Positions 8,624 through 50,725 of a stretch of DNA of 64,000 nt are shown here, in pieces. The notes beneath the pieces are model-generated. The model was not told the DNA's origin. It did not search any database and saw only the letters and a program-made list of their open reading frames with translations. Each line of letters starts with the position of its first letter. Positions within the stretch are counted from its first letter, which is position 1. The translations under genes were made by a program, and so were the position numbers. The stretch spans positions 19,058-83,057 of the forward strand of contig JAAYSS010000047.1 in the NCBI GenBank assembly GCA_012518275.1. Reading direction: 5' to 3'. Source of the stretch: Bacteroidales bacterium (GTDB lineage Bacteria > Bacteroidota > Bacteroidia > Bacteroidales > Paludibacteraceae).

Positions 8624-9370
8624 TTATAAATTTTTCAAAATTTTCAGCGTCCTTTCTACTCTTTCTGCACTCGTGATTAACGTGCTGTATTCATTAATCG
8701 AAACATTTTTTCCGCCCATAGCGAAATCTGAGTTTCTAAATTTCATTTTGCTTTCAACCGGCTGACGTGCAGATAAATGAAACTCTTCTGCTCCCGATTC
8801 ACGAGCTATTTTACCGATATTCTCTTCATTGATACCACTTCCGGGCATGATAATTATTCTATTGTCGGCTTTTTCAACTAATTCTTTCAGTAAGTCAATC
8901 CCCTGCTCAGCTTTTGATTTCCCACCCGAAGTAAGAAGAGTGTCAAAGCCCAACGAGATGATTTTTTCCAAGCTTTGAAGCGGATCTTTGCAGCGGTCAA
9001 AAGCTCTATGAAAAGTCTTATTCATCCCTTTCGCGGCATTGAGCAGCAACGCGTTTTTTTCCATATCAATTCTGCCATCGGCGGTTAAACACCCAAACAC
9101 AACACCATCAACGCCAACTTTCCGACACATTTCAATATCTTTCAACATTGTACGTATCTCCACATCAGAATAGAGAAAATCCCCGCCACGTGGACGGATA
9201 ATAACGTTCAGTTTTATGTCGAGCAATTCTCGGGCTGTTACTATTTCGCCGTATGAAGGAGTAGTTCCTCCCTCGGGAATGGCAGCGCAAAGTTCTACAC
9301 GATATGCCCCACCCTTTTGGGCTTCCACACAACTGGCAACAGAATTTGCACAAATTTCTATTCGATACAT
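8624..9370 (-). CDS. cutC: Copper homeostasis protein CutC
   Basis: IEICANSVASCVEAQKGGAYRVELCAAIPEGGTTPSYG, MPGSGINEENI. Confidence 0.92.
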   Translation of the reverse strand: MYRIEICANSVASCVEAQKGGAYRVELCAAIPEGGTTPSYGEIVTARELLDIKLNVIIRPRGGDFLYSDVEIRTMLKDIEMCRKVGVDGVVFGCLTADGRIDMEKNALLLNAAKGMNKTFHRAFDRCKDPLQSLEKIISLGFDTLLTSGGKSKAEQGIDLLKELVEKADNRIIIMPGSGINEENIGKIARESGAEEFHLSARQPVESKMKFRNSDFAMGGKNVSINEYSTLITSAERVERTLKILKNL

Positions 9371-9535: not shown

Positions 9536-10219
9536 ATGAAAAAAATAATTGTTGCTATTGACGGTTTGTCGTCTTGCGGGAAAAGCACGATGGCAAAAGA
9601 TTTGGCAAAACATGTCGGATACATCTATGTTGATACTGGCGCAATGTATCGTGCCGTGGCTTTATTTGCAATCAAAAACGGTTGGATGACCGACGATTAC
9701 ATAGACGAAGTTGAACTAAAAAGGCACATCAGAAACATCAAAATAAATTTCCAAACCAATGACGAAGGAACGCAGGACACATACTTGAACGGCGAAAACG
9801 TGGAGAAAGAAATCCGTTCGCTGGAAGTTGGAAACGGAGCCAGTCGGATCAGCACTATCGGGTTTGTGCGTGAAGAGCTGGTCCGTCAGCAACAAGCGAT
9901 GGGAGTCGAAAAAGGAATCGTAATGGACGGACGCGATATCGGTACGGTCGTTTTCCCAAATGCAGAGTTGAAGATATTCCTAACCAGCTCACCAAAAATA
10001 CGTGCTCAAAGGCGTTATGACGAATTAATTGCCAAAGGTGAAAAAGTAAATTTTGAAGAAGTATTGGCAAATATCCGCGAGCGCGACGAACGGGATTCCA
10101 ACCGCAAAGAAAGCCCTTTGCGAAAAGCCGAAGATGCTATAGAAATAGACAATTCACACCTTAACATTGAAGAACAAAACGAACTCTTACGAACTTTATT
10201 TCGTGAAAAAGCGTTTTAA
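9536..10219 (+). CDS. cmk: (d)CMP kinase
   Basis: [58 protein letters not shown]. Confidence 0.94.
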
Positions 10220-19003: not shown

Positions 19004-19036
19004 ATTTTGTGAAATTTATTTAATTGTCTATCTTTG
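19004..19036 (+). promoter_or_regulatory. Bacteroidetes-type promoter for tRNA-Met
   Basis: TTTG at 19006-19009, 19-nt spacer, TATCTTTG at 19029-19036; matches the -33 TTTG / -7 TAnnTTTG consensus. Confidence 0.7.
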
Positions 19037-44777: not shown

Positions 44778-44907
44778 TTAAGGTACAAAAATAGTAAAAT
44801 TAACGGAAGAATCGCACTTATCTTTCGCATCAAAACACTTTTACCGAAAATAAAGGGTACTTTCTGTAGTCCGGTTCTAATAATTTTTGTACTTTTGTGG
44901 TTCCAAT

Positions 44908-44978
44908 TGTCCTATAGTGTAACGGTAGCACACCAGTCTCTGGATCTGTTAGTCAAGGTTCGAATCCTTGTAGGACAA
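44908..44978 (+). tRNA. tRNA-Gln (CTG)
   Basis: TGTCCTATAGTGTAACGGTAGCACACCAGTCTCTGGATCTGTTAGTCAAGGTTCGAATCCTTGTAGGACA; acceptor stem pairs perfectly; anticodon stem is imperfect, so the isotype is somewhat less certain. Confidence 0.85.
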
Positions 44979-44980
44979 CA
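44965..44980 (+). repeat. att repeat, tRNA side
   Basis: TCCTTGTAGGACAACA, overlapping the 3' end of tRNA-Gln. Confidence 0.9.
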
Positions 44981-44982
44981 AT

Positions 44983-45013
44983 AAACCGCAACACAATGTC
45001 TGTGTTGCGGTTT
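44983..45013 (+). terminator. Hairpin terminator downstream of tRNA-Gln, inside the element
   Basis: aaaccgcaacaca-atgtc-tgtgttgcggttt: 13-bp perfect stem followed by T-rich sequence. Confidence 0.8.
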
Positions 45014-45020
45014 TTATTTC

Positions 45021-45043
45021 AAAGGGTGAAAATTAGGGTGAAA
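45021..45043 (+). repeat. Putative integrase arm-type site, left
   Basis: AAAGGGTGAAAATTAGGGTGAAA, identical to 50550-50572; contains two AGGGTGAAA units 12 bp apart. Confidence 0.75.
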
Positions 45044-45065
45044 GTGGTTGCGGAAAAGTTGTTTT

Positions 45066-45096
45066 TTTGATAACTCGAATAAACATTCTATCTTTG
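45066..45096 (+). promoter_or_regulatory. Consensus Bacteroidetes promoter upstream of ncRNA candidate
   Basis: TTTG (45066-45069), 19-nt spacer, TATCTTTG (45089-45096). Confidence 0.7.
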
Positions 45097-45102
45097 TAGC
45101 AC

Positions 45103-45250
45103 CTACCAACATTTTTGCCGTTGGTTGGTTAAACACTTTGACGGGCGGGGTGGTTCTCGCCTGTCTTTATTTTTATAAATTTATATTCCAGTTGTTAAAC
45201 GAAAAATCCCCACTATACATCGTATTTGTATGGGGATTTATTTTTTCTAA
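45103..45250 (+). ncRNA. Candidate structured small RNA, no convincing ORF
   Basis: Consecutive hairpins ACCAAC..GTTGGT, GACGGGCG..CGCCTGTC followed by TTTATTTTT, and AAATCCCC..GGGGATTT followed by ATTTTTTCT; start placed about 7 nt after the -7 box. Confidence 0.5.
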
Positions 45251-45520
45251 TTGTTAAAAAAGTACCCTATGAAAACATGAAAGAAAAATGCTATCTTATT
45301 GATATTCAATAACGTAATTCTATTTGACATAATGTAAGTTATAGGCATTAACTTTCATTAACTTATTAAAGTATTGATTATGTGGGTATTAGCGAATATC
45401 TTAGATATTTCACATTTAACAGATTCGCTGTATTGCAAAGATAAGTTAAATTCTCGTTAAATTACTGTTAAAAAATGGCGGGATGATTCCCACCGTTTTC
45501 TTTTAAGTAACTTTGTAAAT

Positions 45521-45727
45521 ATGAAAGAAGAATTGACTATAAAGATGCATTCAGAGCTTGCTATTAGTCCTCGTATTGAAGAGCTGCATCGTTGTATGAC
45601 AATTTGGTGTCATTCTGGGATTAAATCTGAAAATAACCAAAATTTTGAAAAGGTATGTGAGCGATATGGTGTGAGTAAGGCTGTTGTTCTGAAAAATAAG
45701 AAATATTGTCTTTCACTTATCGAATAA
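45521..45727 (+). CDS. Small hypothetical protein
   Basis: 68 aa; TAACTTTG -7-like box at 45508-45515 and a downstream hairpin terminator. Confidence 0.5.
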   Translation: MKEELTIKMHSELAISPRIEELHRCMTIWCHSGIKSENNQNFEKVCERYGVSKAVVLKNKKYCLSLIE

Positions 45728-45765
45728 AAAAAGTAGGCTGGTTTTTTACCAACCTACTTTTTCAT
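45727..45765. terminator. Bidirectional terminator
   Basis: aaaaaaagtaggctggttttttaccaacctactttttcat. Confidence 0.75.
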
Positions 45766-45805
45766 TGTGTCTATATTCCGCAACGGCATTTTCATATTAT
45801 TTTAT

Positions 45806-46042
45806 TTACAGTTTCAACTGATTAATATCTTCGATTGTTTCCAAATTAAGTTTTACACTTCTTGTTATTTGCTCCATTATCGCGTTTTGCAATTTAAAAA
45901 CTGGATTTGTTACCTTACTCGATTCAAGCGGAATGTGAATGTTAGCATAATCAACAATCCGCGCTTCTAACTTCACTAAATCCTCATAAATTCCTACAAG
46001 CTGATTTGTACGTTCTGTTACATCAAATTTTTTTGTATTCAT
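45806..46042 (-). CDS. Small hypothetical protein
   Basis: 78-aa ORF in the minus-strand block; six bases from the neighbouring ORF. Confidence 0.55.
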   Translation of the reverse strand: MNTKKFDVTERTNQLVGIYEDLVKLEARIVDYANIHIPLESSKVTNPVFKLQNAIMEQITRSVKLNLETIEDINQLKL

Positions 46043-46880: not shown

Positions 46881-47630
46881 TTATAGTTTTTCATCATAAT
46901 GGCTTTTTTGACTAATTCTGCGTTTATTCTCTCCATTGTTTTCTGTGTTGATTTTATGATTATACCAATTTGCAAAATGTTTTTTCGCATCGTTTATTGA
47001 TTTTTTTTGCGCCCCCTCAGTTTCCAGTTTCTTAAAAAAAGAATTTATGGAATAAATTATTTCCTCTTTGCTTTTGTGATAATTCATGCACAAAATTTCA
47101 ATATGCCTTTCGTCTTCTAAAAATATCTTTTTACAATCGGATAATTCTATTTCAAAATTTTGTGAGAATTTGTTCTTATTCTCATTCTCATTCTTATTCT
47201 TATTATTATTCTTATTCTTATTCTTATTACCGATATGGTATTCGTATGGTATTGATACTGTATCTGTATTATATACATACTCTATCAAGTCCCGATTCTT
47301 AACCATAGTAAGCCCTTTATTTACAGCACTTATTACTTTTGGAGATTTATTTTTATTATACTTATTCCAGTTAATAATTGCCATTTCATTAGTTTCTTCT
47401 GAATAAACTATCTTTTCAGCATTTTCAAAAAAATCTATTAGCTTTGTAACTTCATCTATTGAAACACCTAAGTCAAAAGAAATTTGCCTTTTAGTTATTT
47501 CATATATTCCGCATTGAGTAGTACGTTCATTTGTCAGTAAGTAAATAAAGAATAGCTTCTTTATTGGATCTAATTCGGAAATGAAACTATCACTCCAATA
47601 TGTAGTATGTACATTTCTATAAATTGCCAT
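46881..47630 (-). CDS. Putative phage-type replication/DnaD-like protein
   Basis: N-terminal winged-helix-like SDSFISELDPIKKLFFIYLLTNERTTQCGIYEITKRQISFDLGVSIDEV; N/K repeat linker; C-terminal FANWYNHKI. Confidence 0.65.
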   Translation of the reverse strand: MAIYRNVHTTYWSDSFISELDPIKKLFFIYLLTNERTTQCGIYEITKRQISFDLGVSIDEVTKLIDFFENAEKIVYSEETNEMAIINWNKYNKNKSPKVISAVNKGLTMVKNRDLIEYVYNTDTVSIPYEYHIGNKNKNKNNNKNKNENENKNKFSQNFEIELSDCKKIFLEDERHIEILCMNYHKSKEEIIYSINSFFKKLETEGAQKKSINDAKKHFANWYNHKINTENNGENKRRISQKSHYDEKL

Positions 47631-47633
47631 AAT

Positions 47634-48125
47634 TCAAAAATTTTTATTAAACCATTCTACGAACGTTGTAAAATCTTTTGCTATATAGTAAACACCGCCC
47701 GCGCTTTCAATATCCCGCTGATATTTCTTTTGTGCCTCACTTTGGCGGTCTGCTCCAATCTTAACCTCAATTTTAACACTCCTGCCGTTGATTGTAGCGG
47801 ATATGTCGGCACTTCCGGGCGTTGATGTACCTTTTACCCATTCAATACTTCCAATCGTTCTACGAAGCCCTAAAACGTCTGTATAAGTTTTGCGTTTGTC
47901 GATCGGTATGCCGGTGGTGTTTATCCTTTCAGCTTGCCCGCCTTTAAGTTTAATATATGCAATGATAGCTTTTGTAAGACCGTTGGCGGTCTTATCGGTG
48001 TGTGTAATCGGTGCAAGGAGTTCCGCCGGTATATTCGGATATTTTAACCGCTTGCGCTTCATTAACTCACTCTCAAGCCGTTTAATGCTTTCCGGTTTTT
48101 TGTATTTAGTTAAACACTTAGCCAT
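47634..48125 (-). CDS. VRR-NUC-like (PD-(D/E)XK) nuclease
   Basis: GTSTPGSADISATINGRSVKIEVKIGADRQSEAQKKYQRDIESAGGVYYIAKDF: D...EVK and Q-containing motifs. Confidence 0.72.
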   Translation of the reverse strand: MAKCLTKYKKPESIKRLESELMKRKRLKYPNIPAELLAPITHTDKTANGLTKAIIAYIKLKGGQAERINTTGIPIDKRKTYTDVLGLRRTIGSIEWVKGTSTPGSADISATINGRSVKIEVKIGADRQSEAQKKYQRDIESAGGVYYIAKDFTTFVEWFNKNF

Positions 48126-48128
48126 AAT

Positions 48129-48440
48129 TTACACCCTCCGATATTTAAGTGTTTCAACATCTTTCATTGTATCGCAGATAATGTTCTTTTCGTAGCGTAT
48201 GAGCGAACCAATCCTTTTGGCGGGGATTATTCCCTTTTTAGTCCATTTGTGCAATGTGGGCAACGATACACCCAAATACTCGGCTGTTTGCTTTCGTGTT
48301 AATAATTCCGGTGTAGTGTCGGTGGATTCTGGTGGCGTTAATTGTTCTACCGCCTTTTGTACTTCGTTTGATACGATTGTTTGAATTGAGTTTTGAAAAT
48401 CGTTAAAACTAATTCCGTTTAATAAAATTTCGTTTGTCAT
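48129..48440 (-). CDS. Excisionase-like helix-turn-helix protein
   Basis: LLTRKQTAEYLGVSLPTLHKWTKKGIIPAKRIGSLIRYEK (HTH_17-like). Confidence 0.85.
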   Translation of the reverse strand: MTNEILLNGISFNDFQNSIQTIVSNEVQKAVEQLTPPESTDTTPELLTRKQTAEYLGVSLPTLHKWTKKGIIPAKRIGSLIRYEKNIICDTMKDVETLKYRRV

Positions 48441-48560: not shown

Positions 48561-49223
48561 TTAAATAAAATATTTCGTCAATTCTTCTTTTACATAATTT
48601 TCAATTAAATCTGTGTTTCTTGCGGTGTTTCTTGTAATACCGCCTCTAACAGCGCAAAAAACGTTTTTTTCTTTTTTTTCAACAACTTTACAGCCAAATT
48701 TATCATAAAAAACTGAAATTCCATCACTTCCTCGATAAAATTCTTTTTGTATTACGTTATTTTCTATCAGATAATAAAAAATCCGTGCAAAGTCTATGAA
48801 TTTAGATATTAGTTTCTCATTTTCATCAATATATGAACAACGTTTTAACACATTAATTAAATCACTTATTTTGTGGCGGTATTTTTTTTCAAATAGACCT
48901 TCAAACGTTAATTCATGCTTTTCTGCTGGCTTATTTGGTAGCTGTGAATCTTTTATGCCTTTCTCAATTAGCAACAAATCAACTTCAACTATTAACCTAT
49001 CTCGAAGTTCGATTAAAGCTGGCGGTGCTTTAAGTATAAGGTCAGGTATGGTGCGTAAAACTCTATCTTCTTCAAGTAAATCACTTTTTAAACTTTCTAA
49101 AAGATAACTAACAACGCCCGGGTTATAATCATTGAAATTCTTCTTTAACCTTTTCAATTGTTTCACCTGATTCAATGTGGTTTCGTATCGTTCTACTTTT
49201 TGAGAGATTGTTGTTGAACTCAT
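48561..49223 (-). CDS. Unknown protein coupled to the integrase (weak RteC/DUF6617-like impression)
   Basis: 220 aa; start overlaps the integrase stop in an ATGA; C-terminal LINVLKRCSYIDENEKL...IFYYLIENNVI...AVFYDKFG-like pattern. Confidence 0.6.
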   Translation of the reverse strand: MSSTTISQKVERYETTLNQVKQLKRLKKNFNDYNPGVVSYLLESLKSDLLEEDRVLRTIPDLILKAPPALIELRDRLIVEVDLLLIEKGIKDSQLPNKPAEKHELTFEGLFEKKYRHKISDLINVLKRCSYIDENEKLISKFIDFARIFYYLIENNVIQKEFYRGSDGISVFYDKFGCKVVEKKEKNVFCAVRGGITRNTARNTDLIENYVKEELTKYFI

Positions 49224-50500
49224 TTTGCTATCGTTAAGGGATTAAAGAACTTATGAGATTTCAGTTTCATTGCATTATCCTTGCTACTCATTTTAATGTA
49301 TTTCATAAATGCACTTTCGGTTTTGTGTCCGGTTATCTCCATTATTGAAAGTACCGGAACGTCTGCCAAATAGGCATTCGTTGCAAAAGAACGGCGGGCG
49401 GTGTGGCTCGTTACTAACTTATATTTTGGCGTTGTTGAACTGACTAACATTCCTTTTATTCGGTTTTGGGTTGTTATTGGTTCATTTATCTCTGCTTTTT
49501 CCGCTACTTCCTTAATGTATTCGTTGTATTTTTGATTACTGATTGACTTTGGTAGCTGATAATCGTATTTCTCGAATATCTGTTTTACTCTCGTATGTAT
49601 CGGAATATCTACGATTCTTTCAGTCTTTTGCGTTTTAAGACTAATCGTATTATCGGAAGTAATGTTATCTTTTGTTAGTCGGAAAAGGTCGGAATATCTT
49701 AAACCGGTATAACTTCCAATAATAAACATATCCCTAACAGTTTCTAAATACTTTGGTAGGTTGGAAAGGTTGTACATTTTCGAAAGCTCCGTTTCATTCA
49801 AATAAATGCTCTCTGTTTCCTCTTTCGGTTTACTAAATGATTTCTTTTGATAGTCTAATGATACGTCAATACCTCGTTCGTTAGCCTTGTTTAGTATCGT
49901 TTTTATAATCTTTATTCGTGTGCCGATAGTGTTTTGTGCTAAACCCAAATCGGTAAGGTATTTCACAAATAAATTATAAAAATCAATATCGGCGTTTTTG
50001 TATGTTAATACGGTTTTATGTTTCTTTTCATAGTCTTTCAGATTACGCAAAACAACCTTATAACTTTTTAATGTGGATTTTTTATAAGGTAGGGTATCAA
50101 TCAAATGCTGTGTGAACTGCGTTAATGTCAAATTAGCAAGACTTGTTGCATCTGTAGCAGTGTTTTTCTGTTTTATAACCTTATCGAGTTCGTTTTTGAT
50201 TTCGTCTTTGGTTGGTGTAGATCCGCTGTTTTTGAATGATAGCAAAACAGCGTTAATCATACTTTCGATGTCATCCAGACGTTGGTTAAATTCCGGATAT
50301 TCCGGAAATTTGGCGGTACTCTTTGCCCTGCAAGTCTTTTTGTTCCAAAATTTCGGATTGATTGTTTCTGAAATATAATATCTCAAATAATTATATTTCG
50401 TTTTGTTGCCAATTTTGACCGGTTCACTAATTGGGATTTGTGCGTAAAGTGGTGTAGTATCCCCTTTTGTATATTTACGGGTAAAACTAATTTTTGCCAT
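49220..50500 (-). CDS. Tyrosine recombinase/integrase
   Basis: Phage_int_SAM-like N-terminus; catalytic motifs GSYTGLRYSDLFRL, TSHTARRSFATNAYLADVPVLSIMEITGHKTESAFMKYIK. Confidence 0.95.
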   Translation of the reverse strand: MAKISFTRKYTKGDTTPLYAQIPISEPVKIGNKTKYNYLRYYISETINPKFWNKKTCRAKSTAKFPEYPEFNQRLDDIESMINAVLLSFKNSGSTPTKDEIKNELDKVIKQKNTATDATSLANLTLTQFTQHLIDTLPYKKSTLKSYKVVLRNLKDYEKKHKTVLTYKNADIDFYNLFVKYLTDLGLAQNTIGTRIKIIKTILNKANERGIDVSLDYQKKSFSKPKEETESIYLNETELSKMYNLSNLPKYLETVRDMFIIGSYTGLRYSDLFRLTKDNITSDNTISLKTQKTERIVDIPIHTRVKQIFEKYDYQLPKSISNQKYNEYIKEVAEKAEINEPITTQNRIKGMLVSSTTPKYKLVTSHTARRSFATNAYLADVPVLSIMEITGHKTESAFMKYIKMSSKDNAMKLKSHKFFNPLTIAK

Positions 50501-50549
50501 AATTGAATAATGATTGGTTAAACACTATGCAAATATAACAAATTCTTTT

Positions 50550-50572
50550 AAAGGGTGAAAATTAGGGTGAAA
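50550..50572 (+). repeat. Putative integrase arm-type site, right
   Basis: AAAGGGTGAAAATTAGGGTGAAA, identical to 45021-45043. Confidence 0.75.
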
Positions 50573-50704: not shown

Positions 50705-50725
50705 TGTTGTCCTTGTAGGACAACA
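50705..50725. repeat. att repeat at the distal end, with palindromic core
   Basis: TGTTGTCC-TTGTA-GGACAACA perfect 8-bp inverted repeat; includes the 16-bp direct repeat at 50710-50725. Confidence 0.88.

Follow-up and report, generated by a model that had tools for sequence, protein, structure and literature searches.

A putative small antisense RNA encoded by a Bacteroidales integrative element is complementary to the start region of the element's integrase mRNA

The window, i.e. the whole stretch of 64,000 nucleotides of Bacteroidales DNA that was analysed, contains an integrative element of 5.75 kb, which sits at the 3' end of a tRNA-Gln(CTG) gene. Apart from a 220-aa protein and small ORFs, the element and its borders show the following features:

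44908-44979, plus strand: tRNA-Gln(CTG), from the tRNA call
44965-44980, plus strand: left attachment repeat, sequence TCCTTGTAGGACAACA, at the tRNA-Gln 3' end, a 16-bp exact direct repeat with 50710-50725
44983-45013, plus strand: terminator hairpin AAACCGCAACACAATGTCTGTGTTGCGGTTT, from the terminator scan, just inside the element and beside tRNA-Gln
45014-45043, plus strand: tandem repeat AAAGGGTGAAAATTAGGGTGAAA, with a copy at 50543-50572 (direct repeat D3, 93%)
45521-45727, plus strand: orphan ORF of 68 aa, facing the rest of the element
46881-47630: replisome-organizer-like gene, inside the element
47634-48125, minus strand: putative nuclease gene with a weak PHROG 93 endonuclease match, carrying target 2 (see below)
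48129-48440, minus strand: HTH_17/excisionase-like gene (Pfam PF12728, PHROG 66), preceding the target 2 gene
49220-50500, minus strand: tyrosine integrase gene int, 426 aa (Pfam PF00589 and PF13102; PHROG 1)
50710-50725, plus strand: right attachment repeat, second copy of TCCTTGTAGGACAACA

The ORF at 45521-45727 had no Pfam or PHROG match. The hairpin AAACCGCAAYACA..TGTGTTGCGGTTT (44983-45013) lies on the inner side of the attachment repeat and adjoins tRNA-Gln in the window, and a near-identical hairpin is located just outside the far-end attachment copy in another element, L007 (12047-12081); the element may thus supply or displace the tRNA terminator. Tandem repeats of approximately 11-12 bp were seen just upstream of int and at the opposite element end in the window, L007, L008/L009, L022, L030, L046 and L019, and differ in sequence from element to element (AGGGTGAAA, GGTAAGAA, GGGGACAA, CCCTCAACC, CCGTCCCC). 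These repeats (45014-45043 in the window) are probably arm-type sites of the integrase that coevolve with it, and as such might be used for delimiting elements.

At the left end of the element, a promoter is followed by a compact structured region:

45066-45096, plus strand: RNA promoter, recognized by its sequence and by pattern excess, with TTTG at 45066-45069, a 19-nt spacer and TATCTTTG at 45089-45096
45101-45174, plus strand: candidate antisense RNA gene of ~74 nt, ends approximate, the start being placed from the promoter
45101-45129, plus strand: hairpin 1, from the fold, with the loop AUUUUUGCC at 45111-45119
45140-45174, plus strand: intrinsic terminator, from the terminator scan and the fold, with a stem at 45140-45150/45155-45165 plus U tract

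The promoter is of the Bacteroidota type and has the form TTTG-19-TATCTTTG that an earlier sequence-only reading of this DNA had assigned to it, and the copy which that reading had placed at tRNA-Met is found at 19006-19036, upstream of this gene. The pattern TTTG-N18-20-TAnnTTTG occurs eight times in the window compared with 2.2 times by chance (0/100 shuffles get to eight), and one further copy is located upstream of an SRP RNA/tRNA-Thr unit (61239-61209, minus strand). In this unit the Bacteroidales small SRP RNA (RF04183; 61028-61210, minus strand) is directly followed by tRNA-Thr, and both apparently form a single transcription unit with a promoter of this form.

From 5' to 3', the RNA consists of hairpin 1, a single-stranded linker and the intrinsic terminator. 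The fold of 45101-45174 reaches -28.6 kcal/mol compared with -15.8 kcal/mol for shuffles (z -4.5; 0/200 shuffles), that of 45099-45255 reaches -45.8 compared with -29.3 kcal/mol (z -4.9), and five terminator-like sites were detected in 44800-46000 where 0.6 are expected. All three hairpins described previously are present, namely hairpin 1, a second one at 45140-45165 followed by a U-rich tract and a third one at approximately 45204-45239 followed by AUUUAUUUUUU. The conserved stretch extends from the promoter, whose -7 box TATCTTTG is kept in homologues, to the second hairpin (45066-45175). As homologous loci lack the third hairpin, it was dropped as a part of the RNA; the RNA should end near 45174, and the extent to 45255 proposed before is too long at the 3' end. 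A small coding ORF was also rejected, as the sole ORF of the region (69 aa, TTG start, 45048-45257) starts upstream of the promoter. The same reading had recognized no RNA family: in Rfam 15 no family reached the gathering score for the window RNA or its homologues, and a permissive Rfam search of the region gave chance-level matches only. By its sequence, the RNA is equipped with its own promoter and terminator, both conserved in homologues.

A repeat search found the linker a second time 5.4 kb away, downstream of the -7 box of the int promoter. Together with the hairpin loop, it defines two stretches of complementarity between the RNA and the int mRNA:

50530-50537, minus strand: -7 box TATATTTG of the int promoter, recognized by sequence
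45111-45121, plus strand: RNA loop segment AUUUUUGCCGU, antisense to the first four int codons, start codon included (11 pairs, one G-U)
50490-50500, minus strand: target 1b, the int start codon region AUGGCAAAAAU, complementary to AUUUUUGCCGU
45122-45137, plus strand: RNA arm and linker UGGUUGGUUAAACACU, antisense to the predicted beginning of the int mRNA (16 pairs with wobbles, 13 contiguous Watson-Crick)
50511-50526, minus strand: target 1a, the predicted int mRNA 5' end AGUGUUUAACCAAUCA, complementary to UGGUUGGUUAAACACU

Both pairings are in the correct antiparallel order, with 27 continuous nucleotides on the RNA side (45111-45137) and 10 bulged bases on the mRNA side. The int leader is only ~28 nt long in the window and about 21-37 nt across elements. 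A genome-wide target search with the 12-mer GTGTTTAACCAA found it only in the RNA (antisense) and in the int leader within the whole 2.4-Mb assembly. The duplex energy alone is not unique to the int site, since a mid-gene site at 9056-9120 (minus strand, gene 8624-9370) reaches -39.4 by chance and certain unrelated stretches in L007, L054, L022 and L030 outscore the int site. A whole-locus scan of duplex energies was therefore rejected as sole evidence, chance sites such as 9056-9120 being equal or better.

A homologous unit is present in L007 (from G005) and in L008/L009 (from G002), both of the same genus and located at tRNA-Gln, as well as in the viral contig L054. The window, L007, L008 and L054 are referred to as group A. 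The conserved unit comprises TATCTTTG, a 5' tract, a small hairpin with a loop ending in (U)UGCC, the linker GGUUAAAYAC and a terminator of differing sequence. Among close homologues the 5' stem of hairpin 1 is CCAAC or CCAGC, an exchange from G-C to G-U being tolerated. Within the genus, the RNA and this integrase co-occur in the same three of eight genomes. A second, degenerate copy of the RNA was noticed in L054 (10361-10425, minus strand); it has the common seed GGGTTAAACACAA, lacks the -7 box and shares the viral contig with a functional-looking copy bearing a changed seed.

The RNAs of L007, L008 and L054 were found via DNA similarity or the RNA motif, independently of pairing, and hence provide the cleanest test of complementarity. 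Duplexes of the group A RNAs with their own int mRNA (-45 to +20) range from -25 to -33 kcal/mol, compared with -12 to -14 kcal/mol for dinucleotide-shuffled int, and between 0 and 5 of 5000 shuffles match the own RNA:int duplex. Covariation across homologous elements had been suggested as a check by the sequence-only reading, and compensatory changes were indeed found between the RNA and its own integrase message. The linker/leader pair AAACAC/GUGUUU of three elements is changed to AAAUAC/GUAUUU in L054, and pairing is retained by G-U in L008, where a leader C is replaced by U, and in L054, where a leader A is replaced by G. The loop also tracks codon 3 of int, as seen for the window (AUUUUUGCC/GGCAAAAAU) and L008 (AUUGCC/GGCAAU) and, beyond group A, for L036 (GGUUGCC/GGCAACU) and L030 (GCUUGCC/GGCAGGC).

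A total of 38 integrase loci from public genomes were scanned for leader complements downstream of TAnnTTTG boxes. Analogous RNA units were identified in L022, L030, L053, L036, L091, L018 and L045; the same design is found in ten elements other than that of the window, i.e. in 11 in total, which belong to five integrase groups and have different sequences:

Group B (L022, L030, L053): GGUUUGAACA against the leader UGUUCAAACC; loop CUGCC or GCUUGCC against GGCAG or GGCAGGC
Group C (L036): UUAUUGAACA against the leader UGUUCAAUAA; loop GGUUGCC against GGCAACU
Group D (L018, L045): AUUGUUUCGCAC/GUGCGAAACAAU and AAUGUUUCGCAC/GUGCGAAACAUU; second stretch antisense to AAGCCGUGAA or AAAGCCGUG
Group E (L091, from viral contigs): GGUGAUUUUACGCA against UGCGUAAAAUCAUC; loop CUAUGCU against AGCAUGG

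Groups C and E have a single member each. The leader motifs of the five groups differ (GUGUUUAACC, UGUUCAAACC, UGUUCAAUAA, GUGCGAAACA, UGCGUAAAAUC), and each is accompanied by a promoter-terminator RNA bearing the complement. One continuous RNA stretch splinting both sites is seen in nine of the 11 RNAs. The two group D RNAs have a different fold: a single long terminator stem carries the two antisense stretches in its loop, in opposite order, and two separate contacts are more likely for these RNAs. Their leader pairings form a further compensatory pair (AUUGUUUCGCAC/GUGCGAAACAAU in L018, AAUGUUUCGCAC/GUGCGAAACAUU in L045). Both elements share one assembly (BWSM_97) with seeds differing by this compensated change, and they offer a natural test for cross-talk of co-resident elements. 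The L036 element holds, besides its integrase antisense RNA, a c4-2 RNA (Rfam RF02944, 51.9 bits; 10028-10108, plus strand) near its tRNA-Arg end.

In ten elements the own RNA:int duplex beats at least 4978 of 5000 dinucleotide shuffles (0-22 as good; z -3.5 to -7.3), values that are inflated and not independent for groups B-E because these were found via the leader complement. The L091 duplex reaches -32.4 kcal/mol. The mean duplex energy is -26.6 kcal/mol within groups compared with -14.1 kcal/mol between groups, and the correct matching of RNA and integrase groups ranks first of 120 permutations. When the ORF starts within an element are ranked, that of the integrase comes first or second (11/11), a spurious L008 ORF overlapping the RNA in antisense being excluded. 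For groups B-E, independent support comes from start-codon pairing, terminator anatomy and second targets, which were not search criteria. As judged from these comparisons, the complementarity to the integrase mRNA start region exceeds chance and the pairing covaries across elements.

No such RNA was seen in many more-distant integrase loci, in some cases owing to early contig ends. Pairings in L073, L028, L033, L039 and other distant loci were judged to be chance or lacked the RNA anatomy, and two loci with relatives of the L091 integrase, L100 and L144, were left out since their start regions are missing or ambiguous. A DNA similarity search of phage records returned AT-rich chance matches only, an exact-pattern scan of viral contigs gave no match, and an order-wide pattern search allowing two mismatches retrieved the window and two chance coding matches only. 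A Pfam search on neighbour genes in the other elements yielded no names.

Besides int, the RNA matches a second gene of the element. Target 2, AAGUGUUUAACUAAAUA (48103-48119, minus strand; direct repeat D2), falls on codons 3-7 of the gene that follows the HTH gene and is the second-best ORF start in the element. In several elements the gene following the HTH gene is the best or next-best start region; the second target lies just after the HTH gene in the window (MAKCLT), L007 (MKRECLT), L054 (MKKMCLT) and L022 (MKTDVQT, GACGUUCAAACC). The L007 homologue of the window nuclease begins with MKQVKRYSKPQS and has no site, whereas its upstream neighbour carries the site. In L018, GUGCGAAACAAUC is repeated in the leader of a second gene, which has a TAAATTTG box, and a similar second site is present in or near the upstream region of another ORF in L018, L030 and L053. 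The second-target site tracks the operon position and not the protein family, as would be expected for the target of a regulatory RNA.

We regard it as very probable that the RNA is a trans-encoded antisense RNA which blocks translation of the integrase and keeps the element quiescent. Its own promoter, at the end of the element nearest the tRNA gene, would give rise to the RNA of ~74 nt, which would act in trans on the integrase message; the int gene is located 5.4 kb away. The loop of hairpin 1 would pair with the start codon, and the 3' arm of hairpin 1 together with the linker would bind ~16 nt at the start of the ~28-nt leader, one continuous RNA stretch splinting both sites while 10 mRNA bases bulge out. 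Pairing of this kind would cover the entire ribosome-landing region, whereupon integrase synthesis would stop and the element would stay integrated. Shine-Dalgarno sequences are generally missing from Bacteroidota mRNAs, and since the leader is also very short, pairing at the 5' end and the start codon should exclude the ribosome. The linker could also pair near the start of the second gene, which follows the excisionase-like gene in the window, with co-silencing as the probable consequence. As the RNA would act in trans by sequence, incoming copies of the same element type should be silenced as well. The sequences show the anatomy of the RNA gene, the complementarity at two sites, its covariation across elements and the recurrence of a second target; expression of the RNA, its pairing in the cell, repression and a physiological or immunity role are what we infer from them. 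The analysis supports the proposal of the sequence-only reading that a regulatory RNA controls the element, and candidate targets can now be named, namely the int mRNA together with one or more further genes of the element.

The motif GGTTAAACAC, shared by the RNA gene and the int leader, is unlikely to be a DNA operator or a recombination-protein site near both element ends that has nothing to do with RNA pairing. Repeated end sites are common in mobile elements, the motif follows closely on each of two promoters (45127-45136 and 50516-50525), and arm-like repeats do occur in this element (45014-45043, 50543-50572); however, the true arm-type repeats vary among the window, L007 and L008 while the motif stays. 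Moreover, the start-codon half of the complementarity corresponds to coding sequence of the integrase and covaries with its codon 3, the second copy in the window, L007, L054 and L022 is located a few codons into a mid-operon gene, and the RNA gene is not found at an element end mirroring int in L022, L030, L053, L036, L018, L045 and L091. Differences between the copies within the helix are mostly G-U compatible, which is suggestive only, as the boundaries were chosen for pairing. It is also very improbable that the RNA pairs with the int mRNA yet activates or stabilises it, e.g. by 5'-end protection. Pairing at the 5' end is able to protect transcripts, but the start codon is covered in nine of 11 elements, such pairing normally excludes ribosomes, and the leader measures no more than about 21-37 nt. 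Finally, the order of a promoter and terminator-like hairpins had suggested an attenuated leader or a premature terminator of a downstream element operon, which is hardly credible given that the terminator follows after ~74 nt, the same strand holds no conserved gene beyond it, the next plus-strand ORF (45521) is ~350 nt downstream, and the RNA recurs in other elements as an isolated unit in opposite orientation to its neighbours.

Building on antisense repression of the integrase as the preferred reading, we tentatively consider, with slightly more doubt than belief, that these RNAs form a widespread, undescribed class of trans-encoded antisense RNAs in Bacteroidota integrative elements acting as the main quiescence switch, which silences the element's own tyrosine integrase by splinting the 5' end and start codon of its mRNA and also silences a second operon, and that the seed defines an immunity or incompatibility group blocking a second copy of the same type. 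To our knowledge, little is known about how small Bacteroidota integrative elements keep quiet. According to a survey of B. thetaiotaomicron from 2020, no more than two sRNAs were then known in Bacteroides (PMC7366714). The RNA described here would be a candidate switch for integration and excision with base-pair predictions in eleven elements, and might point to a rule for the coexistence of elements within one cell. Looking for RNAs that could pair with the two ends of a short integrase leader is a search rule that finds them without sequence similarity, and in a phylum poor in genetic tools the RNA and its target could serve as an orthogonal pair for antisense control.

Plasmid countertranscript RNAs of the RNAI, CopA and FinP type exert loop-mediated antisense control with sequence-specific compatibility groups; they are cis-encoded, fully complementary and control replication or conjugation. 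The window RNA would share the loop-mediated control and the sequence-specific groups, but it is not cis-encoded, is partially complementary and has an integrase as candidate target. The C4 antisense RNAs of P1/P4-type phages (Rfam clan CL00128) are prophage-type RNAs that use short complementary stretches within a structured RNA; we know of no integrase among their targets, and the C4-type covariance models of this clan did not match the window RNA or its homologues. In the open-access literature we found no antisense RNA against a tyrosine integrase, and priority is therefore not certain.

A trans-encoded small RNA is also known from another Bacteroidota integrative element, CTnDOT, whose RteR is 90 nt long and acts on the tra operon and transfer (PMC7366714). 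The window RNA resembles RteR in being trans-encoded by such an element; going by the description of RteR (PMC7366714) the targets differ, as the window RNA matches the integrase start region. The sgm-sRNA of Salmonella Genomic Island 1 is likewise encoded by the integrative mobilizable element itself, but it derives from a 3' UTR and is required for mobilization (PMC9299015), whereas the window RNA has an independent promoter and is a putative repressor. Antisense control of a recombinase is known from the RNA-OUT:RNA-IN system of IS10/Tn10, where the 69-nt RNA-OUT acts on the initiation region of the transposase mRNA and blocks ribosome binding (PMC5006887); a set of such RNAs for tyrosine integrases appears to be undescribed. 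Like RNA-OUT, the window RNA is a small antisense RNA of a mobile element that matches the start region of its own recombinase mRNA. RNA-OUT is cis-encoded on the strand opposite the 5' end of its target, a DDE transposase mRNA, with 35 nt of perfect complementarity. In contrast, the window RNA (45101-45174) is not transcribed opposite its target (50490-50526) but is encoded kilobases away, with imperfect two-site pairing to the message of a tyrosine integrase.
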